64,000 nucleotides of DNA. It comes from Desulfitobacterium dehalogenans ATCC 51507 (GTDB taxonomy: Bacteria; Bacillota; Desulfitobacteriia; Desulfitobacteriales; Desulfitobacteriaceae). Shown piece by piece: positions 37,274-56,789 of this stretch. The notes beneath the pieces were generated by a model. It saw only the letters and a list, made by a program, of their open reading frames with translations, had not been told where the DNA came from and made no database searches. The first letter of the stretch is position 1. Every line of letters begins with the position of its first letter. Made by a program: the position numbers and the translations under genes. The stretch spans positions 1,984,001 through 2,048,000 of the forward strand of contig NC_018017.1 in assembly GCF_000243155.2 (NCBI RefSeq). The letters are read 5' to 3'.

Positions 37274-38425
37274 TTGTTTATATCTAAGTTGGATTTTTGG
37301 CGTGCTTTAACCAATAAGGTGGTCAGCCAGGCCGGAGCGGACGTCTTTATGGATGTCCTTCAGGAAATTATCGCTTTTTTTGCAGCCGATCAGGGTTATA
37401 TTTATCTGTTTAACAGCAATGACCAACTTCTCCCCTTAGCTTGTTATCCCCAGGAAATCACTGAGGTGAGATTAAGTGAAAACCTTCGAAGGTATATCAG
37501 TAACCTGAATCAGGTCACTATCTATACGGACGATACGGTGTGCACGGATCAAGGGTGTCAACAGGAAATAATGGCCATGGGGTATGCGACCCTTGCCTTT
37601 GCTCCGATTTGGAAACAGGATAAGGTTACCGGCTTTATGCTCCTGGCCTGGAAGGAAAGCCACCGGTTTAAACGCGATGATGACGATTTGCTCTATACCA
37701 TCGGAAACCTGCTGGGCATCGGTTTATTCAACGCGCATTTGATTGGCGGGATGCAGATCCGGGAAGATGAACTGCAAACCATGTGCCGGGCCCTGCTGAA
37801 AGCCAAAGAAGAAGAAGCAAAGCGAATCTCCCGGGAATTGCATGACGAGGTGGGGCAGGATCTGACAACCATCGTTTTGCGGCTGAAAATGATCCAGGGC
37901 CAGAACGATGTGGAAATCATCCATGACGATGTGAAGGATTTGCTCTTTATGGTGCGGGAGACCCTGGCTGACGTGCAGCGGATTGCCATGAACCTCCGGC
38001 CTTCGGCTTTAGACAATCTGGGTTTGCTGCCGGCGATTAATTGGCAGTTGGATCAGTTCCGGGCCGACAATCAAGTGGAGATCGCCTTTCATCATCCCCC
38101 TAAATTAGAGCAGCTTACTGAAGAGCAGGAATTATTGCTCTACCGTGTGCTGCTGGAGATTCTGACCAATATATCCCGCCATGCCCAAGCAACCAAGGTG
38201 AACATTTGTCTGCAGCAGGCAGAGGACCTTTTGACTCTGCAGGTAGATGACGATGGCATCGGCTTTGATCTGGAGGGCAGCAATACCTTGGGATTAGGAC
38301 TGATGGGCATGAAAGAACGAATTAAGGAACAGAACGGAACCTTCCTGCTGGACAGCAAGATTGGCAAAGGAACCACGGTGACAGTGGCTGTTCCCATGAA
38401 GAACCCGGGAGGAATGAAGGTGTAA
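37274..38425 (+). CDS. GAF-domain sensor histidine kinase (NarL/LuxR partner type)
   Basis: This 383-residue cytoplasmic kinase has an N-terminal GAF-like domain (about residues 1-150), a dimerisation helix with the phospho-His at 190 (ISRELHDEVGQDL), and a HATPase domain with DDDGIGFDLEG and LGLGLMGMKERI. The GAF part has cysteines at 57, 90 and 95, which could sense redox state; that is speculative. The start is TTG with AGGGGGG upstream. It overlaps the regulator gene by one base. It probably controls the molybdoenzyme operon that follows. Confidence 0.87.
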   Translation: MFISKLDFWRALTNKVVSQAGADVFMDVLQEIIAFFAADQGYIYLFNSNDQLLPLACYPQEITEVRLSENLRRYISNLNQVTIYTDDTVCTDQGCQQEIMAMGYATLAFAPIWKQDKVTGFMLLAWKESHRFKRDDDDLLYTIGNLLGIGLFNAHLIGGMQIREDELQTMCRALLKAKEEEAKRISRELHDEVGQDLTTIVLRLKMIQGQNDVEIIHDDVKDLLFMVRETLADVQRIAMNLRPSALDNLGLLPAINWQLDQFRADNQVEIAFHHPPKLEQLTEEQELLLYRVLLEILTNISRHAQATKVNICLQQAEDLLTLQVDDDGIGFDLEGSNTLGLGLMGMKERIKEQNGTFLLDSKIGKGTTVTVAVPMKNPGGMKV

Positions 38426-39066
38426 TGGAAAAGATCCGTCTTTTGCTGGTTGATGATCATACTCTGCTGCGCCGGGCCTTATCTGCCCTTTTGCAAGGTG
38501 AAGAGCACCTTACGGTGGTGGGTGAGGCCGGCAGCGGCGAAGAAGCCGTTGTGCTGGCCGGGCAGCTCCAGCCGGATATTATTCTGATGGATATCACACT
38601 GCCGGATATGGATGGACTGGAAGCCACCCGGCAAATTCGCTGTCAATATGAAGGAATTAAGATCATTGCCCTGACCATGCATGTGGAGGAAGAATACCTG
38701 CTGCAGTTTTTAGCGGCAGGCGGCAACGGCTACCTGCATAAATCCACAGCCGATCTGGAACTGCTGCAGGCTATTGAACGGGTCATAGCCGGAGAAATTT
38801 ATCTCGGGCCAACCGGAGTGCAGGTGCTGGCCAACCGCCAGTACGTCCGCCCCCGGGAAGGGGATGTGGACCCGGAAGTGCTTTCCATGCGGGAGCGCCA
38901 GGTGCTGGTGCTGGTAGCGGCCGGCTGCACCAGTGCGGAGATCGCCAAAAAACTGTTCTTATCTCCCAGCACCATTGATACTTACCGCAACCGCATCGCC
39001 AATAAGCTGAATTTGGAAAGCCGTTCCCAGTGGGTGGAATATGTGGCCAGGCACCGCCTGGATTAA
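38425..39066 (+). CDS. NarL-family response regulator 1
   Basis: This 213-residue regulator has a receiver domain (acidic pair D10/D11, phospho-Asp D56 in ILMDITLPDMDG, Lys in YLHKSTAD) and a C-terminal LuxR-type HTH (LSMRERQVLVLVAAGCTSAEIAKKLFLSPSTIDTYRNR as parts of residues 152-190). The ATG overlaps the kinase stop. It should be phosphorylated by the kinase and act on the molybdoenzyme promoter downstream; the binding site is not identified. Confidence 0.9.
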   Translation: MEKIRLLLVDDHTLLRRALSALLQGEEHLTVVGEAGSGEEAVVLAGQLQPDIILMDITLPDMDGLEATRQIRCQYEGIKIIALTMHVEEEYLLQFLAAGGNGYLHKSTADLELLQAIERVIAGEIYLGPTGVQVLANRQYVRPREGDVDPEVLSMRERQVLVLVAAGCTSAEIAKKLFLSPSTIDTYRNRIANKLNLESRSQWVEYVARHRLD

Positions 39067-39189
39067 TGTGTAGAGGAAATCTCCACAGGATATCGCGGAT
39101 TTTTGGTTATTATGATCTTACCTTTTCTTGACAGACATTTCACATGCCTTCCCGTACAATCAGGGTGCAGGCAAAAGGAGGAGAACCCA

Positions 39190-42100
39190 TTGGCTACAAA
39201 ACAGCTGCCGCCGCAACTGGAAGAAACTGCAGAGTCTTCCCATATCACTTTGGTTGTGTCCCATCCCTGGCTGCAGGAAGCTTTTATGCGCTTGCTGCAG
39301 GATGCGGGGATTGCCGTATCTGTTATAGCAGAGCCGGAGGAACTGCTGAAGGGCGTGGATGAAACTGTGGATATCGTGATGGTGGATGTCATGGCTTATC
39401 AGAGCCAGTACCGGCATTTGTTCGAGATGATGAGGCAAAAGCACCCGGGGCTTTTGATCATTGCCCTGTTATCCGAACATACGGCTTACCACGCAAGCAA
39501 TGTAGCCAAGGCCGGAGCCAATGGGATTGTGATTAAAGAGAATGCGGATACTGAATTGCTGTCAGCCTTATATAGCGCACTGTCAGGGTCCCGTATTACA
39601 AAACTCTCCTCCCGATTGCTGAATGCTGTAAAGAAGTGTGAAGCCATGCAAGAAGAGGAGGTAGCCAAATTGATCGAAAAGAAAGAGCTGGAAGAAAAAG
39701 ATGATGGAGGCCTATTGGGAAGTAAGTTTGGCAGAAGAAGTTTCTTAAAAGGTACGGCCGCGGCCGCGGCAGTGGTTGGCGTTACCACATCCGTGCCGGG
39801 AGGGCTGACCAATATGTTAAGCCCTGTCACGGCCCAAGCCAGTGAAAATCCGGAAGAAAAGGTTTACGCAGTAAGCTGCCGCAGTAATTGTTTTTCCGGC
39901 TGCCATTTGAATGCCACCGTCCGCAACGGAAAATTAGTGAAAACAGAAATGAGAGAATTTCCTGACCCCGAGTACAGCCGTGCTTGTTTAAAAGGGCTGA
40001 CTCATGTCCAACGGGTTTATGATCCGGATCGTTTGAAAAAGCCAATGAGGCGCGCAGGCAAACGGGGTGAAGGTCAGTGGGAAGAAATATCATGGGATGA
40101 AGCTATTAATGAAATCTGTACCAAATGGAAAGCCATTCGCAGCCAATACGGGGACAGTGCGGTTTCCTTTGCCAGTTTGTCCGGTTGCTTTGGCATCAAC
40201 TCATGGTACAGCTACCAGCCTCTGATGAACTTAATGAACGCTTCTTCATTTGCGCACAATGTAGACGCGGCCTATGCTTATACAGCCTTTACTGTATTTG
40301 GTTTAGGCCCTTTCAATTGCGGCAATGAAACCAAAGATATTAAAAATGCCCGGAGTATTATCGTCTGGGGGTCTAACCCGGCGGAAGCTCAGATCCAGAG
40401 CTGGCACTTTTTTGCTGAAGCCATCGATAATGGGGCGACGATGATCGTCATTGATCCGAACTATACGATTACCGCATCAAAAGCGAAACATTTTGTGCCC
40501 GTCAACCCGGCAACGGACGGTATCCTGGCCATGGCGATGATCAATTTGGTCATCGAAGAGGATTGGGTGGATTGGGATTTTGTGAAGAAATCCAGTGTCG
40601 GACCCTTTTGGGTGATCGAGTCGGAAGATAAGGATTTGGATGGTTTATTTTTACGTACATCCCATTTCCGTCCTTTGCAGGAGGGAGAAGAAGATACCAT
40701 CCTGGTTCGTGACGCCGACGGGAATTTTGCCTCGCCTCAGAGTATTTCCGATCCTGTGGTGGAGGGTGCCGATCATATCGAACTGTTGAAAGACGGCGTT
40801 AAGATAGCCGTTAAGGTTGAGACAGCCTACGCCAAGCTTAAAAAAGCCATTGCAGCCTACACACTGGCTGACGCCGTGAAGGCTTGCGGTGTCGATGAAG
40901 CTATGATTCGGGAAATTACCCGGATTTATGCAACCCAAGGGCCTTCGATTATTTATAACGGCTATGGCCCCGACCATTATACCAATGGCCATCAGGCGGT
41001 TTTTGCCATCACCACTCTGGCCATCCTTACCGGCAATGCCGGCAAAAAAGGCGCCTTTGCCGGGAATCCTGGCAATGCGGCCCTGTTTCTTAACTATGGA
41101 GCCGCAGCCCCTGATGGAATCGCCACCAAATCTCCGGTAATCAATAGTATTGTTGGACCGGATACCATAAAAAACAAAAAATATGGAGATATCCCCGTGG
41201 ATGTGAAAAGCCTCTACGTCAGCTGCGGTAACATGATCGGTAATTGGCCGGATCGCAACGCCTGGCTTGAAGCCTTTGAACAGTTGGAGCTGGTTGTGGT
41301 CGCCGACATGACCATGTCGGATACCGCCATGTACGCAGATATCGTGCTTCCGGTTTGCCATTGGTTCGAGATGTCCGACATTCTCACGACGGTTACCCAA
41401 CATCCCTATATGCTGCTGTCTGAGAAGGCCATCGAACCCCTGTATGAGAGTAAAACCGATTGGGATATCATTGCTCTCCTGGGACGCGGTATGGGATATG
41501 AAAAATATTTTAATAAGACCGGAGATGAATTTGTAAAAGAATTCGTGTTTGGCGCTCCCCAATCCATGAGGGCTCTAGGTGTTCCTGAGAATGTCACTTG
41601 GGACAATTTAATGAAGGAGAAGGCCCTGCGGGTTTTACCTGGGGACAATTATATTCATGGTGAAAACGGTGTCTTTCCCACGGCCCATGGCCGCGCGCAA
41701 TTCTATCTGGAACGTCCCTATCCCATCGGCGGTTTTTATGGGCAGGAAGTGGATTTGGTGAAAGAACGCCTTCCCTATTGGGAACCGGCTACAGAAGTAT
41801 TTGCAGATAATCCCCTTAAGGAAAAATACCCCCTTTCTTTGATTCAGGGCCACAGCCGTTTTCGGACGCATACCCAGTGGGGATTGGGCGTTCCCTGGCT
41901 GAATGAACTGATTACCAAACACTCCGAGAAAGAACCCAGTGTTCAGCTGAATCCCTTGGATGCAAGAGCGCGGGGTCTCCAGGAGGGTGATCTTGTCAAG
42001 CTTTATAATGACCGGGGATATGTAGTAGTAAAAGCCATTTTAAATGACGGCATCCGGCCTGGGACGCTCCTCATGTATAAAGGCTGGCAAAGAGATCAAT

Positions 42101-42216
42101 TCATTGAAGGGCACTATCAGAATTTGACCCTTAGCAAGGCCCATGGTTTTTGCGCGAATTCCCCCTATTTTGATGTGCTTGTCGAAGTGGAATTGTACAA
42201 AGGAGGGAAGCACTGA
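39190..42216 (+). CDS. Receiver-like domain fused to Tat-exported molybdopterin oxidoreductase 1
   Basis: The full frame from TTG 39190 (AAGGAGGAG upstream) gives 1008 residues. Residues about 18-135 resemble a NarL receiver: VVSHPWLQEAFMRLL, MVDVM with the phospho-Asp position, and GANGIVIKENAD with the Lys, but the acidic pair is replaced by SH. A charged linker leads to a Tat motif GRRSFLKG at 182-183. Then comes a DMSO-reductase-family catalytic subunit with cluster cysteines CRSNCFSGC and a C-terminal GCHLN...molybdopterin domain (RGLQEGDLVKLYNDRGYVVVKA). An internal start at 39670 gives an 848-residue form beginning 21 residues before the twin Arg, the normal size of this family. The substrate is unknown. 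Confidence 0.88.
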   Translation: MATKQLPPQLEETAESSHITLVVSHPWLQEAFMRLLQDAGIAVSVIAEPEELLKGVDETVDIVMVDVMAYQSQYRHLFEMMRQKHPGLLIIALLSEHTAYHASNVAKAGANGIVIKENADTELLSALYSALSGSRITKLSSRLLNAVKKCEAMQEEEVAKLIEKKELEEKDDGGLLGSKFGRRSFLKGTAAAAAVVGVTTSVPGGLTNMLSPVTAQASENPEEKVYAVSCRSNCFSGCHLNATVRNGKLVKTEMREFPDPEYSRACLKGLTHVQRVYDPDRLKKPMRRAGKRGEGQWEEISWDEAINEICTKWKAIRSQYGDSAVSFASLSGCFGINSWYSYQPLMNLMNASSFAHNVDAAYAYTAFTVFGLGPFNCGNETKDIKNARSIIVWGSNPAEAQIQSWHFFAEAIDNGATMIVIDPNYTITASKAKHFVPVNPATDGILAMAMINLVIEEDWVDWDFVKKSSVGPFWVIESEDKDLDGLFLRTSHFRPLQEGEEDTILVRDADGNFASPQSISDPVVEGADHIELLKDGVKIAVKVETAYAKLKKAIAAYTLADAVKACGVDEAMIREITRIYATQGPSIIYNGYGPDHYTNGHQAVFAITTLAILTGNAGKKGAFAGNPGNAALFLNYGAAAPDGIATKSPVINSIVGPDTIKNKKYGDIPVDVKSLYVSCGNMIGNWPDRNAWLEAFEQLELVVVADMTMSDTAMYADIVLPVCHWFEMSDILTTVTQHPYMLLSEKAIEPLYESKTDWDIIALLGRGMGYEKYFNKTGDEFVKEFVFGAPQSMRALGVPENVTWDNLMKEKALRVLPGDNYIHGENGVFPTAHGRAQFYLERPYPIGGFYGQEVDLVKERLPYWEPATEVFADNPLKEKYPLSLIQGHSRFRTHTQWGLGVPWLNELITKHSEKEPSVQLNPLDARARGLQEGDLVKLYNDRGYVVVKAILNDGIRPGTLLMYKGWQRDQFIEGHYQNLTLSKAHGFCANSPYFDVLVEVELYKGGKH
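39656..39672 (+). promoter_or_regulatory. Internal ribosome site and TTG start before the Tat signal (enzyme 1)
   Basis: AGGAGGT (39656-39662) lies 8 bases before an in-frame TTG (39670-39672), codon 161 of the long form. The product would start 21 residues before the twin-Arg pair, like an ordinary Tat signal peptide. It suggests a second, receiver-free product. Confidence 0.6.
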
Positions 42217-42833
42217 TGCGTTATGGAATGGCCATTGATTTAAAGCGCTGTATCGGCTGTCACACCTGCTCCGTAGCTTGCAAGCAGGCCAATAATTTGC
42301 CGAACCATATTTGGTGGAACCGGGTGCTGACCATGGGCGGGGAAAGTATCGATACGGCGGAAGGCTCTTATCCCAATGTAAAAATGCAGTATTTAACGGT
42401 AAACTGCCAGCATTGTGAAAACCCGCCCTGCACCAAGGCCTGCCCGGTAGGTGCTACGTATAAAAGAAAAGAAGACGGCATTGTCATCCAGGATTATGAC
42501 AAATGCATCGGTTGCCGGATGTGCATGGTGGCTTGCCCTTATAATGCCCGCAGCTTTAACTGGAGCAAACCGGAGTATTATGTGGACCACGCCGTGGGAG
42601 ATATTGACGCCCCGGCCCATCAATACAATGTGGTGGAAAAATGCACCTTCTGTGTGCACCGGATTGCCAAAGGAGAAAAACCCGCCTGTATGGTGTATTG
42701 TCCGGGCCGCGCCCGCTACTGGGGAGATCTCGATGATCCGAACAGCGAAGTAAGCAAGGCCATCCAAGGCCGCAGCTACGTCAAATTGCTCGAAGAAAAG
42801 GGTACCAAACCCTCCACCTTCTATTTAACCTAG
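42216..42833 (+). CDS. Four-cluster ferredoxin subunit 1 (DmsB/NrfC-like)
   Basis: This 205-residue electron-transfer subunit has four cysteine groups: CIGCHTCSVACKQ, CENPPCTKACP (with a preceding CQHC), CIGCRMCMVACPYN and CTFCVHRIAKGEKPACMVYCP. It has no Tat signal and is probably carried out by the Tat-exported catalytic partner. The ATG overlaps the oxidoreductase stop by one base, and AAAGGAGGG precedes it. Electrons should pass from the NrfD subunit through it to the molybdenum site. Confidence 0.92.
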   Translation: MRYGMAIDLKRCIGCHTCSVACKQANNLPNHIWWNRVLTMGGESIDTAEGSYPNVKMQYLTVNCQHCENPPCTKACPVGATYKRKEDGIVIQDYDKCIGCRMCMVACPYNARSFNWSKPEYYVDHAVGDIDAPAHQYNVVEKCTFCVHRIAKGEKPACMVYCPGRARYWGDLDDPNSEVSKAIQGRSYVKLLEEKGTKPSTFYLT

Positions 42834-42850: not shown

Positions 42851-44047
42851 ATGAGTGCAAAAGAGCAACGCAAGATCTTTACCCAACCCCTGTTTATCAT
42901 CTTCGCCCTGCTCACCATAGTGGGCCTCGTCTGCTGGTTCCTGCAGCTGACCAAAGGGCTGCAGCTTACCCATCTGAACAACTACAACACCTGGGGCCTT
43001 TATATTATCGGCTTCATGATCTTTACCGGCATCGCAGCCGGCTCCTTGATCTTCGCTTCCTCAGCCTATCTTTTTCCGGCCATGGCGGAATACAAGCCCT
43101 ATACCCGGATCGCCGCTTTTGTGGGAGCGATCGGCAGCGTGGTAGCCGCCGGGCTCTTTATCATCGTGGACATCGGCAACCCGGAACGGGCCTGGCATAT
43201 CATCACCAGCGCCAATATTGCTTCCCCCATGTTCTGGGATACCGTGATCCTGGGTACCTATGTGATCCTTGGTATTTTCTTTACCCGTCAGCTTATGGCG
43301 GTACACGCGGGACGGAAAGAAGAAAAATCATTAAAAGGGATCGCGGTCGTATCCTTTATCGCCGGGCTCTTCGTCATGGTCACCTCTTTTGTTTTTGCCC
43401 TGCAGGTAGCGAGACCTTTGTGGAACAACCCGGCGGAGCCGGTATCCTTTCTGGCAGCGGCCCTGGTCGCTGCGCTGGCACTCCTAATCATTATCTTTAC
43501 CGTCCTGAATAAAAGCGGCTACATCGACATAAGTCAGGAGAAGCTCAGTAAGCTTGGCAAACTGGCAGCCGTCTTTCTTTTCTTCGAACTCTTCATCGTC
43601 CTCGGGGAAGCAGCTATTGGGCTGTATGTCGGCAGCGGGGAAGAAGCGGAGATCATTCACTGGCTGGTAAAGGGAGAGGGCGCACCCTTCTTTTGGGTAG
43701 AGCTGATCGCCATTGTGGCCGGGCTGGTACTGTTGCTCAGCAAAAAGCCGGGTGTGCTGGCCGCAGGATCGGCAGTCTCAATCTTTGCCATCTTCATGAT
43801 CAAATACAACCTCTTGCAGGCGCAGCTTTTGAATCCGTTGATCACTTATGCGGGACCCCCCGGATACGGCGGCGGAGAAGGGGTCTATTTGCCATCTCTG
43901 GTCGAACTCGGCGTAGCCGTGGGCATTATTTCCCTGGGCGCCCTGCTAGTGATAATTGGGCTGGATAAGCTGAATTTGGGGTTGAGATCCGGCAAGGGAG
44001 CCGGCAGGGCTGCGGATAGCTTCTCGGGCAAAGCCGGGCAAGCCTAG
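42851..44047 (+). CDS. NrfD/PsrC-type membrane anchor 1
   Basis: This 398-residue protein has about nine membrane segments, starting with IIFALLTIVGLVCWFLQL. The family oxidises or reduces menaquinol without heme and hands electrons to a ferredoxin-like subunit. GAAAGGGGCG precedes the ATG 17 bases after the ferredoxin stop. It is nearly identical in protein to the second anchor at 49344, and 98 bases of DNA near its 5' end are identical to it. A terminator follows. Confidence 0.92.
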   Translation: MSAKEQRKIFTQPLFIIFALLTIVGLVCWFLQLTKGLQLTHLNNYNTWGLYIIGFMIFTGIAAGSLIFASSAYLFPAMAEYKPYTRIAAFVGAIGSVVAAGLFIIVDIGNPERAWHIITSANIASPMFWDTVILGTYVILGIFFTRQLMAVHAGRKEEKSLKGIAVVSFIAGLFVMVTSFVFALQVARPLWNNPAEPVSFLAAALVAALALLIIIFTVLNKSGYIDISQEKLSKLGKLAAVFLFFELFIVLGEAAIGLYVGSGEEAEIIHWLVKGEGAPFFWVELIAIVAGLVLLLSKKPGVLAAGSAVSIFAIFMIKYNLLQAQLLNPLITYAGPPGYGGGEGVYLPSLVELGVAVGIISLGALLVIIGLDKLNLGLRSGKGAGRAADSFSGKAGQA

Positions 44048-44293: not shown

Positions 44294-44992
44294 ATGGCGG
44301 AATCAAATGGACGCATCCCTGCCCAAGAGGAACAGATCGCCGCGCTGAAAAACGCCCTGACTTTATTGGAGAGCGCGCGGGAAGCTGAATATCGCCGGAT
44401 TTCCCGGGAACTCCATGATGAGGTCGGGCAATCCCTTACTTCCTTATTGCTGCAAATCAAAGCCCTGCAAATGGAAGAAATGTCGGCGGAAGCGGCGGAT
44501 GGGCTGAATTTTTTGCGTACGACCGTTACCGATATGTTGGGGAATGTACGCCGTCTCGCGCAAAACCTGCGGCCTGTTGTCCTGGAGAATCTCGGTCTGG
44601 TTGCGGCTATCGAGTGGTATGCCGAAGGCTTGATGGAGCACGCCGACATCGACATTGCCTGCCGCCTGCCCCGGGAAAGACTGGTGATCAGCGAACGGAT
44701 CGAATTGGCGGCATACCGGATCGTCCAGGAGGGGTTAACCAATATCCTTCGCCATGCCAAGGCCAACAATGTGGTGATTCATTTAAATGCCTATAACGGT
44801 AAGCTGATCCTCTCGATCCGCGACGACGGCTGTGGTATGAATACAGATAATAAACGGAATGGGCTTGGCCTGAGCGGGATGCGGGAACGGGCCATGCTTT
44901 TGGGCGGCAGCCTGCGTATCCTAAGTGGAATCGGCCAGGGAACTCAGCTGATTGTTGAGCTTCCGCTGTCAGAGAAAGGAGACGCTCAATGA
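44294..44992 (+). CDS. Sensor-less NarL-type histidine kinase 2
   Basis: This 232-residue kinase has only a short helical lead (about 28 residues), the phospho-His at 41 (ISRELHDEVGQSL), and the HATPase domain (RDDGCGM, GLGLSGMRERA). It lacks the GAF domain of kinase 1 and has no membrane segment. Its input must therefore come from a partner protein, or it may serve as a shared phosphodonor. GAGGTA precedes the ATG, and it overlaps the regulator gene by ATGA. Confidence 0.88.
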   Translation: MAESNGRIPAQEEQIAALKNALTLLESAREAEYRRISRELHDEVGQSLTSLLLQIKALQMEEMSAEAADGLNFLRTTVTDMLGNVRRLAQNLRPVVLENLGLVAAIEWYAEGLMEHADIDIACRLPRERLVISERIELAAYRIVQEGLTNILRHAKANNVVIHLNAYNGKLILSIRDDGCGMNTDNKRNGLGLSGMRERAMLLGGSLRILSGIGQGTQLIVELPLSEKGDAQ

Positions 44993-45657
44993 CGAAAGCC
45001 AGCTTGTTTTTAAGCGATGATCATAACATCCTGCGCCACTCCCTGTGCTTGCTTCTGGAGAAGTACGGGTATGTCATCTGTGGGGAGGCGGCAACCGGGG
45101 CGGATACCATTGCCGCAGTCAGTCAATTAAAGCCTGATCTGCTGCTTTTGGATATCACCTTACCCGATATGAATGGAGTAGAGGTAACGGCTGAGCTCAT
45201 CGGACTTTTGCCCGATTTGCGTATTCTGGCGCTGACCATGCACGATGAGAAGGATTACCTTCTGCCTTTTCTCGAAGCCGGCGGACATGGTTATGTCCAT
45301 AAATCGGCGGCGGACGCTGATTTGCTCAATGCCATCGAGCGGGTACTCGCCGGGGAGATGTTCCTCCGGCCCCCTGGAGTCCAACTTCTGGCCCAGAGCC
45401 ACAAAAACCTCAAACAACAGCAATCCGCTTCTTCCGCAGTCCAGCTTTCTAAACGCGAGCGGGAGGTGCTGGGATATCTGGCGCGGGGTTATACCTACAA
45501 GGAAATCGCCGAGCTTCTCTATCTTTCGGTGCGCACCATCGAGACCTACCGGATGCGCATCATGAATAAACTGCAAATCAATAACCGTTTTGAACTGGTG
45601 GAATACGCCATTGAGCACCAGATTTTTCCGAACCGTCCCGATCGTGAAATTCCGTAA
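44989..45657 (+). CDS. NarL-family response regulator 2
   Basis: This 222-residue regulator has a receiver domain with D10/D11, phospho-Asp D55 (LLLLDITLPDMNG) and Lys in YVHKSAAD, then a LuxR-type HTH (LSKREREVLGYLARGYTYKEIAELLYLSVRTIETYRMR as parts of residues 150-190). It is paired with kinase 2 by overlap and precedes the second molybdoenzyme gene by about 100 bases. Confidence 0.9.
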   Translation: MTKASLFLSDDHNILRHSLCLLLEKYGYVICGEAATGADTIAAVSQLKPDLLLLDITLPDMNGVEVTAELIGLLPDLRILALTMHDEKDYLLPFLEAGGHGYVHKSAADADLLNAIERVLAGEMFLRPPGVQLLAQSHKNLKQQQSASSAVQLSKREREVLGYLARGYTYKEIAELLYLSVRTIETYRMRIMNKLQINNRFELVEYAIEHQIFPNRPDREIP

Positions 45658-45760: not shown

Positions 45761-48694
45761 GTGTTCGAAATGCTGTCACAAGAGAGTATCCATAACAACA
45801 TAAGGAAGAAATCCGGCAAATACATCTGCTTCCTGCTGGAAAAAAATACGGAACGCGGCAAGTATTTACGGAGGCTCCTTCAGGCCGAAAACCTGTCCGT
45901 GCTCTCTTTCTATTCACGGCAGGAGGTTTTGGAAAAGGTGAATGATACCACACAGGTCATCATTGTCGACGCCACGGATTATGGTGTGGATTATGCCGCC
46001 TTCTTTGCCGAGCTGCGGCAGAGAAGTCCTGGCATCGCCGTTGTTGCCCTCTTGGCCGACAGTTCAAGGGCCTATCGGCAGCATATGCTCTCAGGTGGTG
46101 CTGATGCCGCCTTGGCCATTGAGCGGGCTGACGAATTACTGGCTGCAGCAGTATGGCATAGCGCCCGTAAGAATACTTCGGTTTTTGCCTCCAATGATTG
46201 TGTAGAGCAAGCGAAGGAGGGAATTCAAAACGTGAAAGAGGATCTAAAGTTATTTGAACGTCAGTTTAACAGGAGAGCATTTCTTAAAGGATCCGCTGCT
46301 GCTGCGGCAGTTACCGGTGTGACGGTCGCCAGTCCGGGGAAGATGGCAACCAAGGCGCTGGCCGCTGGGGACGGGACCGCGAGCGTAAAACAGGAGCAAA
46401 TTTTTTATGGTGCTTGCAGGGCTAACTGTTTTGGCGGCTGCCGTCTGAAAATTACGGTCCGCAATGGCAAGGTAGTAAAAACACAAATGGCCGAGGTTCC
46501 GGACAAACGCTACAACCGGGTCTGCGCCAGGGGATTGACTCATACTCAAATGATGTATAGTCCCGACCGGCTGAAACATCCGCTGAAAAGGGTGGGGGAA
46601 CGTGGAGCCGGGCAATGGGAGCAGATTACCTGGGAAGAAGCCATTAAAACGATAACGGACACATGGAAAAAAATCCGGACGGAATTAGGAAATAATAGTA
46701 TAGGATTTTCCCACGGCACTGGCAGCAACGGCGTATTGACCAATAACGGTTTTCACAGGTTGCGCAATTTGATGGAGGCCACCTGTTTTTATTGTAATTA
46801 TGACAGCAATCATATAGTTACGATTGGTCAGTGTTTGGGCATTGGCCCTAATTATAACGGGAATGAAATGGCCGACCTGATAAATGCTAAAACAATTATA
46901 TTTTTTGGCGCCAATATTACTGAATCGCAACCTCAGAATTGGCATTTTGTAAAGGAAGCACAGGAAAATGGCACTAAGCTCATCTGTATTGATCCTGTCA
47001 GCACAACCTTGGCGATCCGTTCCGATATTCACGTGCCAATCCGTCCGGGGACTGATGCTGCCTTGGCTATGGCGATGATGAATATCATTATAAAAAACGG
47101 CTGGACTGATGACACATTTATCAAAAAGTCTTCAGTTGGACCTTTTCTGGTAAAAGAAAGCGACGGTACTTATTTAAGGTTTAGTGACCTGTGGCCATTG
47201 CCGGAAGGAGAACAGGATGCTATTGTCGTCCGGGATAAAGATGGGAACATCGGTGTTCCCGGTAGAATTCCAGATCCTGTCATCAAAGGCAGCTATACGG
47301 TCAACGGTATCAAAGTGACAACAGCTTTTGACCTTCTTGTCAACAGGGTGGCAGAGTGGACCCCTGAGCGTACGGCGGAATTATGCGATATTCCGGTAGA
47401 TCAGCTTCATGAAATTACCCGTATTTACGCCACCGAAACACCAAGCACTATTTTTACAGGGTTTGGGCCGGACCATTATGTGAATGGCAATCATGCTTAT
47501 GTAGCAATATTTGCCTTGGGCATGATCACGGGTAATATCGGCAAACCGGGTGCGAGCACCGGCTGGCCTTTCAACCTGGGCTTCAACATCAATGCCGGAG
47601 CTATTTCGACTGCGCCCGGATCGCCAATCGGCCCTACATTACCTCAGGTTAAAATTCCCTATATTGTGGAAAATAAGCAATATGGGGGCAAGCCTTTGGA
47701 GCTCAGAAGTATCTATCATGTCAATACGAATCCATTGGGCAATTTCGCCGGGCGTCAGGAACTTTTGCAAGCATATGAAAAGCTGGAGCTCATTGTCGCG
47801 TCCGACTGGAGACTGACGGATACGGCTCGTTATGCGGATATTGTGCTGCCGGCTGCTCACTGGTTTGAGGTGGAAGATATTCATAGCAGCGGTCAGACAA
47901 CCTGGACGGCGTTCCAGGAAAAAGCGGTGGAGCCGCCTTTTGAATGTAAGTCCGATTGGGAGATGATCCGGATGTTGGCGGAGGCGATGGGGTATGGAGA
48001 ACATTGCTCCTACACCGACAGTGAAATGCTCAGAATGGCTTGCGAAGGTCCCGGACCGGAGGCATTCGGTATTTCTTACGACAAGCTGAAAAGCGAAAAA
48101 GTGGTAAGAGGGGCTCTCCCTCCCGGTAAAACGTATCTCTATGGAGAAGACGGTGTTTTCAAGACTGCAACCGGTCGCGTTCAATTTTATTTTGAAAATC
48201 CGCAGCCGGATTATCTTTATGATCCTGTAAATCAAAAGATTAATCCCGATGAAGAACGCCTGCCTTATTTTGAACCGCCACGCGAAGCATGGCCTGAAAC
48301 GGTTGGAAGTTTTACCAGAAAGCCATTGGCTGAAAAATATCCTTTGGTGTATACCTCCGAGCGCAATAAATTAAAAACCCATACCATGTTTGGACATAAC
48401 CCATGGTTGCTGGAATTATATCCTGAACCAATAGTTAAAGTAAATCCGCAGGACGCCCGACAACGGGGCATAGCGGACGGAGATTATGCCAAAGTATACA
48501 ATGACCGGGGATACGTGGTTTTAAAAGTTGTTTTCAGCAGCGGCGTTCGGCCAGGAATGCTTGTAGTACCTAAAGGATGGCAAGCGGATCAATTTAAAGA
48601 AGGGCATTACTCCGACCTGGTGGGAAATTTGGTTGACGATTATAGGCTGAATAATAATTATTTTGATACCTTATGCGAAATGGAAAAAGTATAA
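45761..48694 (+). CDS. Receiver-like domain fused to Tat-exported molybdopterin oxidoreductase 2
   Basis: The full frame (977 residues from GTG 45761; an ATG at 45770 is also possible, neither with a strong ribosome site) has a receiver-like N-terminus: YICFLLEKN, VIIVDATDYG with the Asp position, and ADAALAIERAD, where the receiver Lys has become Glu. A linker leads to the Tat motif NRRAFLKG (171-172). The catalytic part has cluster cysteines CRANCFGGC and the C-terminal RGIADGDYAKVYNDRGYVVLKV. An internal GTG at 46232 gives an 820-residue Tat protein. The catalytic part is clearly diverged from enzyme 1, so the substrates may differ. Confidence 0.87.
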   Translation: MFEMLSQESIHNNIRKKSGKYICFLLEKNTERGKYLRRLLQAENLSVLSFYSRQEVLEKVNDTTQVIIVDATDYGVDYAAFFAELRQRSPGIAVVALLADSSRAYRQHMLSGGADAALAIERADELLAAAVWHSARKNTSVFASNDCVEQAKEGIQNVKEDLKLFERQFNRRAFLKGSAAAAAVTGVTVASPGKMATKALAAGDGTASVKQEQIFYGACRANCFGGCRLKITVRNGKVVKTQMAEVPDKRYNRVCARGLTHTQMMYSPDRLKHPLKRVGERGAGQWEQITWEEAIKTITDTWKKIRTELGNNSIGFSHGTGSNGVLTNNGFHRLRNLMEATCFYCNYDSNHIVTIGQCLGIGPNYNGNEMADLINAKTIIFFGANITESQPQNWHFVKEAQENGTKLICIDPVSTTLAIRSDIHVPIRPGTDAALAMAMMNIIIKNGWTDDTFIKKSSVGPFLVKESDGTYLRFSDLWPLPEGEQDAIVVRDKDGNIGVPGRIPDPVIKGSYTVNGIKVTTAFDLLVNRVAEWTPERTAELCDIPVDQLHEITRIYATETPSTIFTGFGPDHYVNGNHAYVAIFALGMITGNIGKPGASTGWPFNLGFNINAGAISTAPGSPIGPTLPQVKIPYIVENKQYGGKPLELRSIYHVNTNPLGNFAGRQELLQAYEKLELIVASDWRLTDTARYADIVLPAAHWFEVEDIHSSGQTTWTAFQEKAVEPPFECKSDWEMIRMLAEAMGYGEHCSYTDSEMLRMACEGPGPEAFGISYDKLKSEKVVRGALPPGKTYLYGEDGVFKTATGRVQFYFENPQPDYLYDPVNQKINPDEERLPYFEPPREAWPETVGSFTRKPLAEKYPLVYTSERNKLKTHTMFGHNPWLLELYPEPIVKVNPQDARQRGIADGDYAKVYNDRGYVVLKVVFSSGVRPGMLVVPKGWQADQFKEGHYSDLVGNLVDDYRLNNNYFDTLCEMEKV
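46214..46234 (+). promoter_or_regulatory. Internal ribosome site and GTG start before the Tat signal (enzyme 2)
   Basis: AAGGAGGG (46214-46221) lies 10 bases before an in-frame GTG (46232-46234), codon 158. The twin-Arg pair would be residues 14-15 of that product, as in ordinary Tat signals. It is the counterpart of the site in enzyme 1. Confidence 0.6.
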
Positions 48695-48708: not shown

Positions 48709-49326
48709 ATGCGTTATGGAATGGCTATTGATTTGGAGCGCTGCATTGGCTGTCACGCTTGCTCGGTAGCGTGCAAGCAAGCGAATAATCTGCCCAATAA
48801 AATTTGGTGGAACCGGGTTTTGACAGTGGGCGGCGAAGCGATGGATACAGCAATGGGAACCTATCCTAATAATAAGATACAGTTTCTGCCGGTAAACTGT
48901 CAGCATTGTGATAATCCGCCCTGCACCAAAGCCTGTCCGGTCGGCGCCACTTACAAACGGGAAGAGGACGGCATTGTTATCCAGGATTATGACAAATGCA
49001 TCGGCTGCCGCATGTGTATGGTGGCTTGCCCCTACAACGCCAGAAGCTTCAACTGGAGCAAACCGGAGTATTATGTGGACTTTGCCGCCGGCGACAGCGA
49101 CGCGCCTGTTCATCAGTACAATGTGGTAGAAAAATGTACCTTCTGTGCCAACCGGATTGCCCAGGACGAAGTTCCTGCCTGCATGGAGCTTTGTCCGGGA
49201 AGGGCCCGTTACTGGGGTGATCTGGACGATCCGAACAGCGAAGTGAGCCGCGCCATCAGAGGCCGCAGTTATGTTAAACTGCTCGAAGAAAAGGGTACCA
49301 AACCCTCTACCTTCTATTTAACGTAG
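48709..49326 (+). CDS. Four-cluster ferredoxin subunit 2
   Basis: This 205-residue protein is a close paralog of the subunit at 42216, with the same cysteine groups (CIGCHACSVACKQ, CDNPPCTKACP, CIGCRMCMVACPYN, CTFCANRIAQDEVPACMELCP). AAAGGAGGG precedes the ATG, 14 bases after enzyme 2. Its last 30 codons and the gap to the anchor gene are very similar to the first copy in DNA. Confidence 0.92.
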   Translation: MRYGMAIDLERCIGCHACSVACKQANNLPNKIWWNRVLTVGGEAMDTAMGTYPNNKIQFLPVNCQHCDNPPCTKACPVGATYKREEDGIVIQDYDKCIGCRMCMVACPYNARSFNWSKPEYYVDFAAGDSDAPVHQYNVVEKCTFCANRIAQDEVPACMELCPGRARYWGDLDDPNSEVSRAIRGRSYVKLLEEKGTKPSTFYLT

Positions 49327-49343: not shown

Positions 49344-50534
49344 ATGAGTGAAAAAGTACAAAAGAAGATCTTTACCCAACCCCTGTTTATCATCTTCGCC
49401 CTGCTCACCATAGTGGGCCTCGTCTGCTGGTTCCTGCAGCTGACCAAAGGGCTGCAGCTTACTCATCTGAACAACTACAACACCTGGGGCCTCTACATCA
49501 TCGGCTTCATGATCTTCACCGGCATCGCGGCCGGCTCGCTGATCATCGCTTCCTCGGCCTATCTTTTTCCGGCCATGGCGGAATACAAGCCCTATACCCG
49601 GATCGCCGCTTTTGTGGGAGCCATCGGCAGCGTGGTAGCCGCAGGGCTCTTTATCATCGTGGACATCGGCAACCCGGAGCGGGCCTGGCATATCATCACT
49701 AGCGCCAATATCGCTTCCCCCATGTTCTGGGACACCGTGATCCTGGGCATCTATGTGATCCTTGGTATTTTCTATACCCGCCAGCTCATGGCGGTACACG
49801 CGGGACAGAAAGAAGAAAAATCTCTGAAAGCGATTTCCATCGTATCCTTTATTGCCGGGCTCTCCGTCATGGTGACCTCCTTTGTCTTTGCCCTGCAGGT
49901 AGCGAGACCGTTGTGGAACAACCCGGCGGAGCCGGTGTCGTTCTTAGCCGCTGCTTTGGTTGTCGCCTTAGCCCTCTTACTCATCATCTTTGCCATACTG
50001 AATAAAAGCGGCTATATCGACATAAGCTTGGAAAAGCTTAACAAGCTCGGTAAACTGGCCGCGGTATTCCTGTTCTTTGAGCTATTTGTTGTCCTCGGGG
50101 AAACCGCCATCGGCTTGTATGCCGGAACAGGGGAAGAAGCGGAGATCATCCATTGGCTGGTAACCGGAGAAGGGGCGCCGTTTTTCTGGATAGAGCTGAT
50201 AGCGATCCTCGCCGGACTGGTGCTTCTGTTAAGCAGGAAGTCAGGAGCCTTAATCTTAGGTTCAGCAGCAGCGATCTTGGCTGTCTTTATGATCAAGTAC
50301 AATCTCCTTCAGGCCCAGCTTTTGAATCCGCTGATCACTTATGCGGGGCCCCCCGGATACGGCGGCGGAGAAGGGGTCTATCTGCCCTCTTTCATTGAGA
50401 TTGGCGTGGCTGTGGGCATTATCTCCCTGGGGGGACTGCTGGTGATGATTGGGTTGGATAAACTCAGCCTGGGGATAAAATCCGGTCTGAACATGTCCGG
50501 CTTAGAGCGCGGAATTAAGTCCAAACAGGCCTAA
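49344..50534 (+). CDS. NrfD/PsrC-type membrane anchor 2
   Basis: This 396-residue menaquinol-linked anchor is a near-copy of the one at 42851, with the same membrane segments and the conserved YAGPPGYGGGEGVYLPS loop near residue 340. The C-terminal tail differs (LNMSGLERGIKSKQA). DNA identity is highest in the 5' half. It closes the second module and is followed by a terminator. Confidence 0.92.
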   Translation: MSEKVQKKIFTQPLFIIFALLTIVGLVCWFLQLTKGLQLTHLNNYNTWGLYIIGFMIFTGIAAGSLIIASSAYLFPAMAEYKPYTRIAAFVGAIGSVVAAGLFIIVDIGNPERAWHIITSANIASPMFWDTVILGIYVILGIFYTRQLMAVHAGQKEEKSLKAISIVSFIAGLSVMVTSFVFALQVARPLWNNPAEPVSFLAAALVVALALLLIIFAILNKSGYIDISLEKLNKLGKLAAVFLFFELFVVLGETAIGLYAGTGEEAEIIHWLVTGEGAPFFWIELIAILAGLVLLLSRKSGALILGSAAAILAVFMIKYNLLQAQLLNPLITYAGPPGYGGGEGVYLPSFIEIGVAVGIISLGGLLVMIGLDKLSLGIKSGLNMSGLERGIKSKQA

Positions 50535-50662: not shown

Positions 50663-51355
50663 ATGCAAAAAACAACCCAACAGGAAATGCAAACGGCGAT
50701 CGCAGCCTCGGATCTCTATCAACTGCTGGCGATGTGGCTGCAGCTGCCAACCAGGGAAATTGCGGCAGGTTTGTTGAATGGAAGTCTAGCCGAGGATGTC
50801 CTGGCTATTTTTGATGAACTGGGATTTCCTGCTCACCTGCAGAAAGGTTTGAAGTCGGTATTTTCACAAATTCAGGAGGAGAGCAAAAGTCAGGAAGAGC
50901 TCTTTTCTGATTTGCGGAAAGAGTATACCCGCTTGTTCACCCACCCGAAGCAGCCCCAGATCCATATTTATGAATCCCTCTTTCTCTTTAATCCGGAAGG
51001 AGACGAGGCAAGGCCATCCCTATTCATCAGCCCGGCGGCTTTGGATGCGGAACGCTGTTATAAAAAAGCAGGCGTGGCCCGTGCCAAGGAAGTCAACGAA
51101 CCCGGCGATCATATGGCAACAGAGATGGAATTCATGATGTTTCTTTATCTGCAGAAAGCTAAAGCCTTGCAGGAAGGCGACCGGACTGAAGTTGAGCGGA
51201 GAGGGAAAGAAATACAGGAGTTTTACGAGATCCATTTGCAGAAATGGGCGAAAGAATTTTTTGCCCGCTGTAGCACCTTGAGTGAGCATCCCTTTTTTAA
51301 GACGGTGGGCGAAATCGGAAGTATTTTTATGAAAGAAATGTTGCCGGCTCATTAA
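50663..51355 (+). CDS. TorD/DmsD-family molybdoenzyme chaperone
   Basis: This 230-residue all-helical protein has the TorD signature EPGDHMATEMEFM (about residues 153-165). Such chaperones bind Tat signals of molybdoenzymes, help cofactor insertion and delay export until folding is complete. The natural clients are the two oxidoreductases upstream. TTAGGAGG precedes the ATG. A multi-cluster Fe-S protein follows 35 bases later. Confidence 0.88.
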   Translation: MQKTTQQEMQTAIAASDLYQLLAMWLQLPTREIAAGLLNGSLAEDVLAIFDELGFPAHLQKGLKSVFSQIQEESKSQEELFSDLRKEYTRLFTHPKQPQIHIYESLFLFNPEGDEARPSLFISPAALDAERCYKKAGVARAKEVNEPGDHMATEMEFMMFLYLQKAKALQEGDRTEVERRGKEIQEFYEIHLQKWAKEFFARCSTLSEHPFFKTVGEIGSIFMKEMLPAH

Positions 51356-54067: not shown

Positions 54068-55872
54068 ATGTCTAAGGAAAAGAAAGAAGAACTGAAAAGG
54101 GAAAAACTTTCGCGTAGAGATTTCTTAAAGAACGCGGGTATTATGACTGCGGGTACGGCCGTAGGTGCCGGCTTCCTGCTCTCGGGCTGCAGCCAGGGAA
54201 CACAAGGGGAAACTGCAAAACCTCAAGCTGCTGAAGCAAAGCCCTGGCTACCGGAAAAATGGGATAAGGAAACGGATGTCGTCGTTGTAGGTACTGGCTG
54301 CGGTCTAGCTGCTGCTATTGAAGCAAAAAATGCCGGATCAGATGTTATCGTCCTTGAAAAAAATGATTGGGCCGGCGGACTGTATAAAACGGCAGGGGGT
54401 CACGCCATCCTTGGTGGGACACGGATTCAGAAGGAAGGAGGAATACAGGATAGCCTGGAAGATTGGTTTGAAGATGAAATGAAAGCCAGCGGATACCGTG
54501 GGGTACCTGAGCTGATTCGTACTTATGTAGAAAGAGGACCGGAACTTATCGAATGGATGGAATCCATGGGCTTTAAATGGTACGCCACTGTGGGGAATTC
54601 TAGTCCGGAAGTTCATCGTGCCAATCGTTCCCACTATCCGGCAGCCAATCCGGGAGTATACGATGCTAAAGCCAACAATCCCATGAGTTTTGGCTTGGCC
54701 TGGACCACAGTCTGGGAAAAAAAGCTTCAGGAAATGGGTGTTCCTATCCTTTTCAAACACCGGATGAGGAAGGTTTACCGGGAACCCGGTGGTCCGGTTC
54801 TGGGGATATCCGTAGAAACTCCGGAAGGCATGATTGCTATTAAAGCCCGTAAAGGCGTCATACTTTGTACAGGAACCTGGACGGATAACTACCGCATGGC
54901 TCAGGCTTGGGACCCACGGGTCGTGGGACCGGATTGTTTTGGGGACGGAGGTACCCCGGCCGACGGAACACTGTTTGTCGACAGTGCCGGTGACGGTCAT
55001 TTCGCAGCTGCTGAGATTGGGGCCGGCTTCAGCGATATGTCCTTTACTTCATACATCTATCTCTTCTATGGTTCTCGTTCATACTGGGGTTGGGAACCGC
55101 CCGATTTCAAAACAGCAGCTTATTACGCCGATGGAAAGGGAATTTCGCGTCCTGCCGCCTTCTTTGAGCGGGTTATTTTGGTAAAAAACGATGGTTCCCG
55201 TTATATTAATGAAATAGAGGGAGCGAAGAAAGCTGACCCGGCCAAAGGTGAAGCCGGCGGTCTGAACGAAAACCCTGAATGGCCCTACACAGCCAAATAC
55301 CTTAGCCTGCCCCAGCCTCGAAATGTTTGGGCGATAGCCGACTCTGACAGTGCTGCAGCCTTGAAATGGCCAATTGAGGACTTGAAGAATCCGAACCCCA
55401 AGAAGGGGCTTATGTTTGATCCGGCCTGCATCGCTATCGCCGACAGTATTCCCGAATTGGCGGAAAAAATGGGTATTCCAGTTGCGGAATTGGAGAAAAC
55501 CATCAACCGTTACAATGGTTTCGTCGATGCAGGCAAGGATGAGGATTTTGGCAAAACCACTCTATTCAAGATTGCCAAACCGCCTTTCTACGGGCTGAAA
55601 GCCTCCTTGATCCGTCATACCCAACGCAATGGTATCCGTGTTAATACCAAATCCCAAGTCATTGAACAGGCCGACCAACTGCTGGATACAAAGGCAAAGC
55701 AATTGATGGAAGCATTTCCATTGACCAGGAAAAAGTCATTCCTCATCTCTATGCCGCAGGTGAGTTAGGGAATGCCATGGGCTGGAGACGTCCACACGGT
55801 TCCTTGGGGAACTATGCCACCGTCGCCCGCATTGCTGGGGAGAATGCGGCCAAGGAGACGTCATGGGGGTAA
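54068..55872 (+). pseudogene. Tat/lipobox FAD-binding flavoprotein, frameshifted near the 3' end
   Basis: The protein has a Tat motif SRRDFLKN, a lipobox LLSGC at the end of the signal (about residue 39), and a fumarate-reductase-type FAD domain (VVVVGTGCGLAAAIEAKNAG; GGLYKTAGGH). The first frame ends early at 55768. The expected C-terminus (SISIDQEKVIPHLYAAGELGN ... RRPHGSLGNYATVARIAGENAA, in parts) is intact in the next frame and ends at 55872. One missing G near 55693, in AAAGGCAAAG, would explain the break. It is either a real mutation or a sequencing error. Relatives transfer electrons to organic acceptors outside the membrane. Confidence 0.85.
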
Positions 55873-56789
55873 TGGCACATCAAGTAATTCTTGAGATTGT
55901 TGAGGCTCCCTTTACGGCAATAAATCCAGGAGCTTTTATTATTATAAAAGCCAGAGTGACTTGTCCTATGCGATGCAATTTTAAGGCCGATAAAGTCCGA
56001 ATCATTAACCATGATGGAAAGGTGATTAAAGAAGCTCCACTGGTTATCCCTATGGGCACGGCCTTTGAAACGGATCCGATAGTCCTTAAAGCGCCGATCT
56101 TGGCAGGAAGCTTTACCTGGAAGGCTTGTTATTACGAGCAAGAGAAAGAAGGAATCACCCACCTGGAGACTTCGGTTCCTGTTTCCTTTACAGTAAAGCC
56201 CCTTCACATGACCGGCATAGCCATCTGGGATGTGCCCTCACCCGTAGTGGCCAAGGAAACTATGAAATTCAAGGTTGGGGTGAAATGCTCTGCGGATTGC
56301 CGGCTCACCGGTCAAGTGATCAAAGTCTATAATCACAAAAACAGGGAAGTGGCTACAGCAAAACTTGGCGATAAACCTTGGGCGGAAACTCAAGCACTCT
56401 ATTGGACAGAGGTGAAATTACTGGCCCCTGATCAAGCAGGCAGCTACAATTGGCAGGTAAAATTTCCTGAGCAGGATAGGGAGACCCCACACCTGGAGAC
56501 AGAGTCCTCCTTTAGTTTCAGAGTGGCGAACCCGCCTGAATGTACCGTAAATGTAAAAGTAATGGACGGGAAGGATAGGACCCCTATTCAAGGAGCTGCC
56601 GTAATACTTCACCCTTACAAGGGGGAGACGGATGAACAAGGAAAAGCCTGCTTTGAGATAACAAAAGGGGAATATCAGCTTTATGTAGGCGGGCTAAATT
56701 CCTATGAAAGCCGGCAAAGCAAAATAATTGTCCAGCAAAGCACATATATGGAAGTAGAGCTGGAGAGTTCAAACTTTATGGGAGATTAG
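55863..56789 (+). CDS. Beta-sandwich protein of unknown function
   Basis: This 308-residue protein has no signal peptide. Two similar Ig-like halves are visible (VTCPMRCNFKADKVRIIN and VKCSADCRLTGQVIKVYN, both with paired cysteines), then a carboxypeptidase-regulatory-like end (GKDRTPIQGAAVILHPYKGETDEQGKA in parts). The ATG at 55863 has AAGGAG 5 bases upstream and overlaps the frameshifted C-terminus of the flavoprotein gene by 10 bases, so the two are a single unit. A function with the flavoprotein is inferred only from the overlap. Confidence 0.65.
   Translation: MGVMAHQVILEIVEAPFTAINPGAFIIIKARVTCPMRCNFKADKVRIINHDGKVIKEAPLVIPMGTAFETDPIVLKAPILAGSFTWKACYYEQEKEGITHLETSVPVSFTVKPLHMTGIAIWDVPSPVVAKETMKFKVGVKCSADCRLTGQVIKVYNHKNREVATAKLGDKPWAETQALYWTEVKLLAPDQAGSYNWQVKFPEQDRETPHLETESSFSFRVANPPECTVNVKVMDGKDRTPIQGAAVILHPYKGETDEQGKACFEITKGEYQLYVGGLNSYESRQSKIIVQQSTYMEVELESSNFMGD

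Follow-up and report, generated by a model that had tools for sequence, protein, structure and literature searches.

Among the closest described systems are the membrane molybdoenzyme complexes of the DmsABC/PhsABC type, with which the locus reported here shares the catalytic domains, the four-cluster ferredoxin subunit, the NrfD-like subunit and a gene for a TorD-family chaperone. No known member of this type carrying an N-terminal receiver was found, unlike the fused enzymes described below. As regards the production of two proteins from one gene, the long and short forms of CheA are an example of an internal in-frame start.

The Tat signal of exported enzymes takes a hairpin shape on insertion, and its twin arginine is held by TatC on the cytoplasmic face (PMC7317946). 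A domain that is recognised as a receiver but has lost one or more of the five active-site residues has been defined as a pseudo-receiver (PsR), and binding to a kinase or a regulator has been proposed as the mode of action of such domains (PMC12632262). In E. coli, apo-TorC acts on the sensor TorS and lowers torCAD expression (PMC10845959, citing Gon 2001).

The window analysed here is a stretch of 64,000 nucleotides of Desulfitobacterium dehalogenans ATCC 51507, in which a pseudo-receiver is almost certainly fused ahead of the Tat signal of a molybdoenzyme of the DMSO reductase family. No published receiver-Tat-molybdoenzyme fusion was found in the open-access literature.

The fused enzymes and their pseudo-receiver

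The features of the two clusters described in the following all lie on the forward strand. Upstream of the first fused gene are a soluble histidine kinase with GAF, HisKA_3 and HATPase_c domains and no transmembrane helix (37274..38425, Pfam), and a NarL-type response regulator with intact D-D / D / T / K residues (38425..39066, Pfam). The gene is followed by a DmsB-like four-cluster ferredoxin subunit, recognised from its sequence motif (42216..42833), and by an NrfD/PsrC-like membrane subunit, recognised from its sequence (42851..44047). A second copy is present 6.6 kb downstream, and the order kinase, regulator, fused enzyme, two subunits and chaperone is repeated. The second kinase (44294..44992, 232 aa, Pfam) has HisKA_3 and HATPase_c, with neither a sensor domain nor a membrane helix, and is followed by a canonical NarL-type regulator (44989..45657, Pfam), the second fused gene, whose long form has 974 aa (45770..48694; ORF list, Pfam and AlphaFold2), a DmsB-like ferredoxin subunit (48709..49326), an NrfD-like membrane subunit (49344..50534) and a TorD/DmsD-like chaperone (50663..51355), which the TIGR03482 and TorD models match below their curated cut-offs. 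This second copy, together with the same fusion in related genomes, indicates that the fusion exceeds chance. Further along the window there is a Tat-exported flavoprotein of the fumarate-reductase-like kind (54068-55768), followed by a protein of repeated beta-rich segments (55863-56789).

In both copies the Molybdop_Fe4S4, Molybdopterin and Molydop_binding domains are found in this order, all above the Pfam gathering cut-offs. With 329.9 and 359.9 bits against the type II DMSO reductase model TIGR03479, whose curated cut-off is 984.75, the enzymes fall outside this subfamily, and the scores are likewise well under the curated cut-offs of all the named subfamilies. The nearest solved structures include the perchlorate reductase PcrA, at low similarity, and the single-contig source genome of 4.32 Mb holds about 40 matches to the molybdopterin family.

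The long form of the first gene (39190..42216, 1008 aa) has a TTG start at 39190 with AAAAGGAGGAG as its Shine-Dalgarno sequence, is open throughout and consists, from the N- to the C-terminus, of the pseudo-receiver, a linker, the Tat signal and the molybdoenzyme. The original prediction of a receiver fold ahead of the Tat signal, an unusual arrangement, is borne out by Pfam, AlphaFold2 and Foldseek, which place the domain at residues 18-132 (39241..39585). PF00072 (Response_reg) matches residues 22-127 with 32.9 bits, against a cut-off of 30.2, and reaches 37.0 bits when the N-terminus is searched alone. Using ten relatives as input for the receiver models, AlphaFold2 predicts a confident (beta/alpha)5 receiver fold for both window copies. 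In the first gene the mean pLDDT is mostly 80-92 across residues 20-130, and the predicted elements are beta1 18-22, alpha1 26-38, beta2 42-46, alpha2 49-55, beta3 60-66, alpha3 67-84, beta4 89-94, alpha4 96-108, beta5 112-115 and alpha5 116-132. The top 50 Foldseek hits of this model in the PDB are receivers almost throughout, such as Thermotoga maritima CheY (TMt 0.85) and NarL (1rnl). The corresponding domain of the second gene (45824..46174; AlphaFold2 and VIA-align) has the same fold as the first and a VIA-align Z of up to 16.9 against receivers, with a PF00072 score of 22.5-26.7 bits, below the cut-off of 30.2.

A long helix, of lower model confidence, connects the pseudo-receiver to the Tat signal (39733..39840, RRSFLKG... 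to TAQA/S; motif and Pfam), in which the hallmarks of a Tat substrate are present, namely the twin-arginine motif, a hydrophobic stretch and an AxA-type cleavage site. The TAT_signal model (PF10518) scores 21.2 bits over residues 181-198 of the first gene, slightly below the cut-off of 22.7, and 23.0 bits, above the cut-off, in the second copy.

The reading of the active-site residues made earlier also stands. The first gene keeps the phospho-Asp position D66, has Ser at the switch-Thr position (S95) and keeps the Lys (K116), and the Mg-binding acidic pair at the end of beta1 is replaced by V-S. The Asp66 codon (39385..39387) corresponds to a position that is invariant in the ten aligned relatives, and in the same number of aligned sequences (10/10) the acidic pair is gone, its place being taken by V-S, L-E, I-S, I-P, V-P or V-R. 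Receivers usually carry Pro at position D+4, where the ten-sequence alignment has Tyr or Phe. Within the domain, conservation is highest in the beta5-alpha5 loop, which in known complexes belongs to the face that docks the kinase, and lowest in alpha4. Judged by these residues, with the acidic pair lost and the Asp kept, the domain is a pseudo-receiver according to the definition in PMC12632262. No member has the metal-binding pair, and ordinary phospho-signalling by the domain is therefore not supported.

The dN/dS values of the receiver part are 0.13 (L063/L083), 0.15 (L078/L063) and 0.19 (L079/L066), 0.15-0.29 in Desulfosporosinus, and about 0.4 in L081/L082 and L080/L066. They are higher than those of the catalytic part, yet below 1, and no stop codon is found in the linker of any of 14 fused genes. 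By these ratios (about 0.13-0.4) the receiver frame is under purifying selection. A promoter-like block, TTGACAGACA ... TACAAT (39128..39160), precedes the long start, a position that is kept in the alignment of the relatives. Its pattern, TTCxYGACAGA, about 21 bases and TAnAAT, is found in most relatives at a similar distance to the long start, and the -10-like box is found in nearly all of them, even where the surroundings have diverged. The purifying selection and the promoter-like block make it very probable that transcription of the long frame begins in a start region of its own and that the frame is translated. An untranslated upstream frame, considered earlier as a way to refute the prediction, is contradicted by these two observations and by the conserved Shine-Dalgarno sequence.

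In several relatives (L063, L078, L079, L080 and L081) the Shine-Dalgarno sequence of the long start is immediately preceded by an inverted repeat of 6-10 bp, which reads TTGTGC-N6-GCACAA or, with changes on either side, AATTGTA...TACGATT. Both window copies (region 39140-39190 in the first) have it in weak form or not at all. This repeat could form an RNA hairpin or serve as an operator.

A conserved internal start

In the long form the twin arginine is at residue 182, and thus not near the N-terminus. A Tat signal close to the N-terminus, with 21 residues ahead of the twin arginine, would be found only in a putative short form of 848 aa, an ordinary Tat precursor that starts at an in-frame TTG (39670..42216). 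This TTG is preceded by the Shine-Dalgarno sequence GAGGAGGT (39655..39662, duplex -13.7 kcal/mol), the complete site being GAGGAGGT-AGCCAAA-TTG. In the second gene the long start has a weak Shine-Dalgarno sequence (duplex -6.8 kcal/mol), and the internal one, AAGGAGG (46214..46220, -11.2 kcal/mol), belongs to the site AAGGAGG-GAATTCAAAAC-GTG, from which the corresponding short form would begin at an in-frame GTG (46232..48694).

An in-frame TTG, GTG or ATG behind a Shine-Dalgarno sequence, 12-21 codons ahead of the twin arginine, is found in all 14 fused genes listed, as in GGGGAGGTC-AAGGAA-GTG (L077), AAAAGGAGGT-AATTACA-TTG (L080) and AAAAGGAGGT-AAATTTG-ATG (L081). Duplex energies lie between -11.2 and -13.7 kcal/mol, close to the best possible, in 10 of the 14 and are weaker in the remaining four (-8.3 to -9.3 kcal/mol), whereas -11 kcal/mol is not attained in any of 276 windows from the catalytic parts. 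Synonymous shuffles match the observed duplex in 0-6% of trials per gene (p up to 0.06), and the combined p is about 1e-7 over eight rows treated as lineages, a value to be taken as a guide, with kinship only roughly allowed for. Leu at the internal site is always encoded by TTG and Val always by GTG, codons that account for 23% of Leu and 18% of Val, respectively, in the fused genes overall. The spacing between the internal Shine-Dalgarno sequence and the in-frame start codon is kept though the surrounding peptide varies. In addition, the unfused L125, which is nested in the fused clade, has its sole start, GGAGGAGGTACGGGAAATG (ATG), at the position matching the internal start, and the peptide there is LKEEVREM as compared with LIKEEVTEL.

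Taken together, these features make it very likely that the genes have two starts, one for the long form with the pseudo-receiver and one for an ordinary Tat precursor. Unfused members of the family mostly start with ATG, and the internal site of the fused genes mostly has TTG or GTG, as if the internal start had been tuned down.

Distribution and linkage with two-component systems

The original prediction called for a search for the same fusion in other genomes, and this was rewarded: the fusion is present in at least 14 genes, two in the window and at least 12 in related genomes, one of the 12 outside genes being weakly assigned and another cut by the contig start. A wider search in three genomes of the class of G077 gave no further member. 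The weakly assigned gene is that of L068 (Lachnospiraceae), whose N-terminus falls short of PF00072 and which has no kinase next door. The NarL-like regulator ahead of this fused enzyme (L068 3634-4347) lacks the acidic pair as well as the phospho-Asp (Q instead), so that both receivers of this locus are pseudo-receivers. Two candidates were rejected: L124, whose open frame has 1,012 codons, shows no twin arginine by pattern and an N-terminus unlike a receiver, and was counted as unfused, and in L069 the receiver match belongs to an ordinary regulator close to a gene of the formate-dehydrogenase-like kind.

A kinase and a NarL-type regulator are found directly upstream in each of the 11 listed fused genes with full upstream sequence. 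All the kinases examined beside fused genes are devoid of transmembrane helices, and two are without any sensor domain, so that their input could be a protein partner. The histidine kinase that adjoins the fused gene of L078 (7087-7830, 247 aa) is sensorless and has no membrane helix. Recent duplication of the neighbouring regulator is not supported as the origin of the domain: other NarL-type regulators outscore the own one against the pseudo-receiver profile, a comparison that argues only weakly against descent from the own regulator, its set of regulators having been chosen by similarity to the pseudo-receiver.

The tree of the catalytic part places the fusion at the base of a group of 18 rows, followed by two losses, a number that is not firm given the long branches. 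The losses concern L125 and one branch of five genes, two of them from the source genome, and in all six unfused genes from both losses a divergent Crp/Fnr-like regulator, so labelled by likeness as its Pfam matches are mostly under the cut-off, replaces the two-component system. Two unfused relatives of the enzyme in the source genome, about 49% identical (L122 4058-6553 and 13388-15856), both carry a divergent Crp/Fnr-like regulator with a conserved Cys near the N-terminus. The other genes, including those for the subunits and the TorD chaperone, are common to fused and unfused clusters. Since the unfused relatives keep the same subunits and chaperone, the domain appears dispensable for maturation, and the shared remaining genes together with the exchange of the regulator suggest that the domain serves regulation and not catalysis or maturation, with the association between domain and regulator type resting on few independent events. 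The second copy, the conserved internal start and this match between receiver fusion and two-component system had escaped the original prediction.

Possible roles of the pseudo-receiver

The evidence suggests feedback from the unexported enzyme to its own regulators. Translation from the TTG at 39190 would give a long precursor with the pseudo-receiver ahead of the Tat signal, and translation from the TTG at 39670 an ordinary Tat precursor, which would be the bulk source of the exported molybdoenzyme. In the usual Tat topology the part ahead of the twin arginine remains cytoplasmic, and the pseudo-receiver on the long form would then be a cytoplasmic tag that marks enzyme not yet exported. This tag may bind the upstream soluble histidine kinase and/or the NarL-type regulator without accepting phosphate, shifting their activity, and the expression of the cluster would thereby follow the maturation and export of the enzyme. 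We infer that the cell produces both forms, that export and cleavage of the long form proceed normally, which partner is bound, and that the feedback is probably negative upon precursor build-up. We consider it an even proposition that the domain exerts its effect via its own two-component system. The more specific version, in which the tag is read by a dedicated soluble, sometimes sensorless kinase, export and maturation are measured directly and the two starts set the tagged share, is put forward tentatively. As for the earlier proposal that a partner kinase is involved, gene order supports the link, and it is the ordinary phospho-signalling that is not supported, with the metal-binding pair absent in all members. 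The linkage with the two-component system may also mean only a shared ancestry of the cassette, which counts against a signalling role.

Other explanations were weighed. Signal peptidase, or a cut in the linker, might separate the domain from the long form, leaving it to act as a regulator that is either free or anchored in the membrane; the fusion would then mainly tie its amount to that of the enzyme. An AxA-type cleavage site is indeed present behind the Tat signal, and hairpin insertion (PMC7317946) would leave the domain in the cytoplasm, joined to the signal peptide; a separate gene, however, would serve equally well, and a relative with split genes was not found, which makes this rather unlikely. 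It is unlikely, too, that the pseudo-receiver retains the long precursor in the cytoplasm, or checks its folding or quality before export, with no part in two-component signalling. The original prediction had raised such retention or a folding checkpoint, and it is conceivable in that the domain directly precedes the Tat signal in every member, linked to it by the long helix of lower model confidence, and the short form would bypass the check, resulting in two pools. It is less favoured because unfused relatives from the same genome (about 49% identity), which have these subunits and a TorD-type chaperone as well, manage without the domain, whose presence tracks the type of regulator and not the branch of the enzyme.

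Much less probable is that the upstream frame is a translated leader that tunes internal initiation, the encoded domain being a by-product: the conserved Shine-Dalgarno sequence and start in the linker would fit, as would the hairpin-like element just ahead of the first Shine-Dalgarno sequence in several relatives, but selection acts at the protein level, Asp66 is invariant over ten divergent sequences, and a fold of about 115 residues is far beyond the needs of a leader. It is very improbable that only the long form is made, with the internal Shine-Dalgarno sequence as a by-product of a Lys/Glu-rich linker or as a site of pausing ahead of the Tat signal. The codons for Glu and Lys are rich in purines and some synonymous shuffles do equal the observed value (p up to 0.06), but the start spacing is kept amid peptide change, Leu and Val are without exception TTG and GTG, and the unfused L125 begins at the matching place. 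That the domain is a decaying, now functionless relic of a response-regulator fusion, as the loss of the acidic pair in all members, the faster evolution of the receiver than of the catalytic part and the at least two losses of the domain might suggest, is scarcely credible in view of dN/dS values well below 1, the linkers of 14 genes free of stops and a fold of good confidence in both copies.

Returning to feedback from the unexported precursor, if true it would be a new way for a cell to sense the maturation and export of an exported enzyme. It also raises the question whether natural Tat export copes with a folded domain of about 180 residues that lies on the wrong side of the signal. The working mode of bacterial pseudo-receivers has been called a mystery (PMC12632262). 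The fused genes are a natural set of pseudo-receivers with an obvious candidate for the partner, a cargo that is easy to measure and, in the unfused sisters of the same genome, natural knock-outs, which makes the question of PsR function testable.

With the PsR domains described by Bourret et al. 2025 (PMC12632262), the present domain shares the (beta/alpha)5 fold detected by PF00072, the lack of key active-site residues and the absence of Pro at D+4; those known are mostly in regulators and cytoplasmic signalling proteins, whereas here the domain precedes the Tat signal of an exported respiratory enzyme. As in CheA and in Cas11b, the latter made by internal in-frame translation (PMC11899642), one gene would give two proteins with a common C-terminal part; the two forms predicted here from sequence would differ by a signalling domain before an export signal. 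Finally, the proposal has in common with TorC-TorS (PMC10845959) that the two-component system of an exported molybdoenzyme complex would be acted on by an immature part of that complex. With TorC-TorS the signal comes from a separate subunit, apo-TorC, whereas the candidate here, a dedicated cytoplasmic domain, is carried by the catalytic precursor and is encoded beside soluble kinases.
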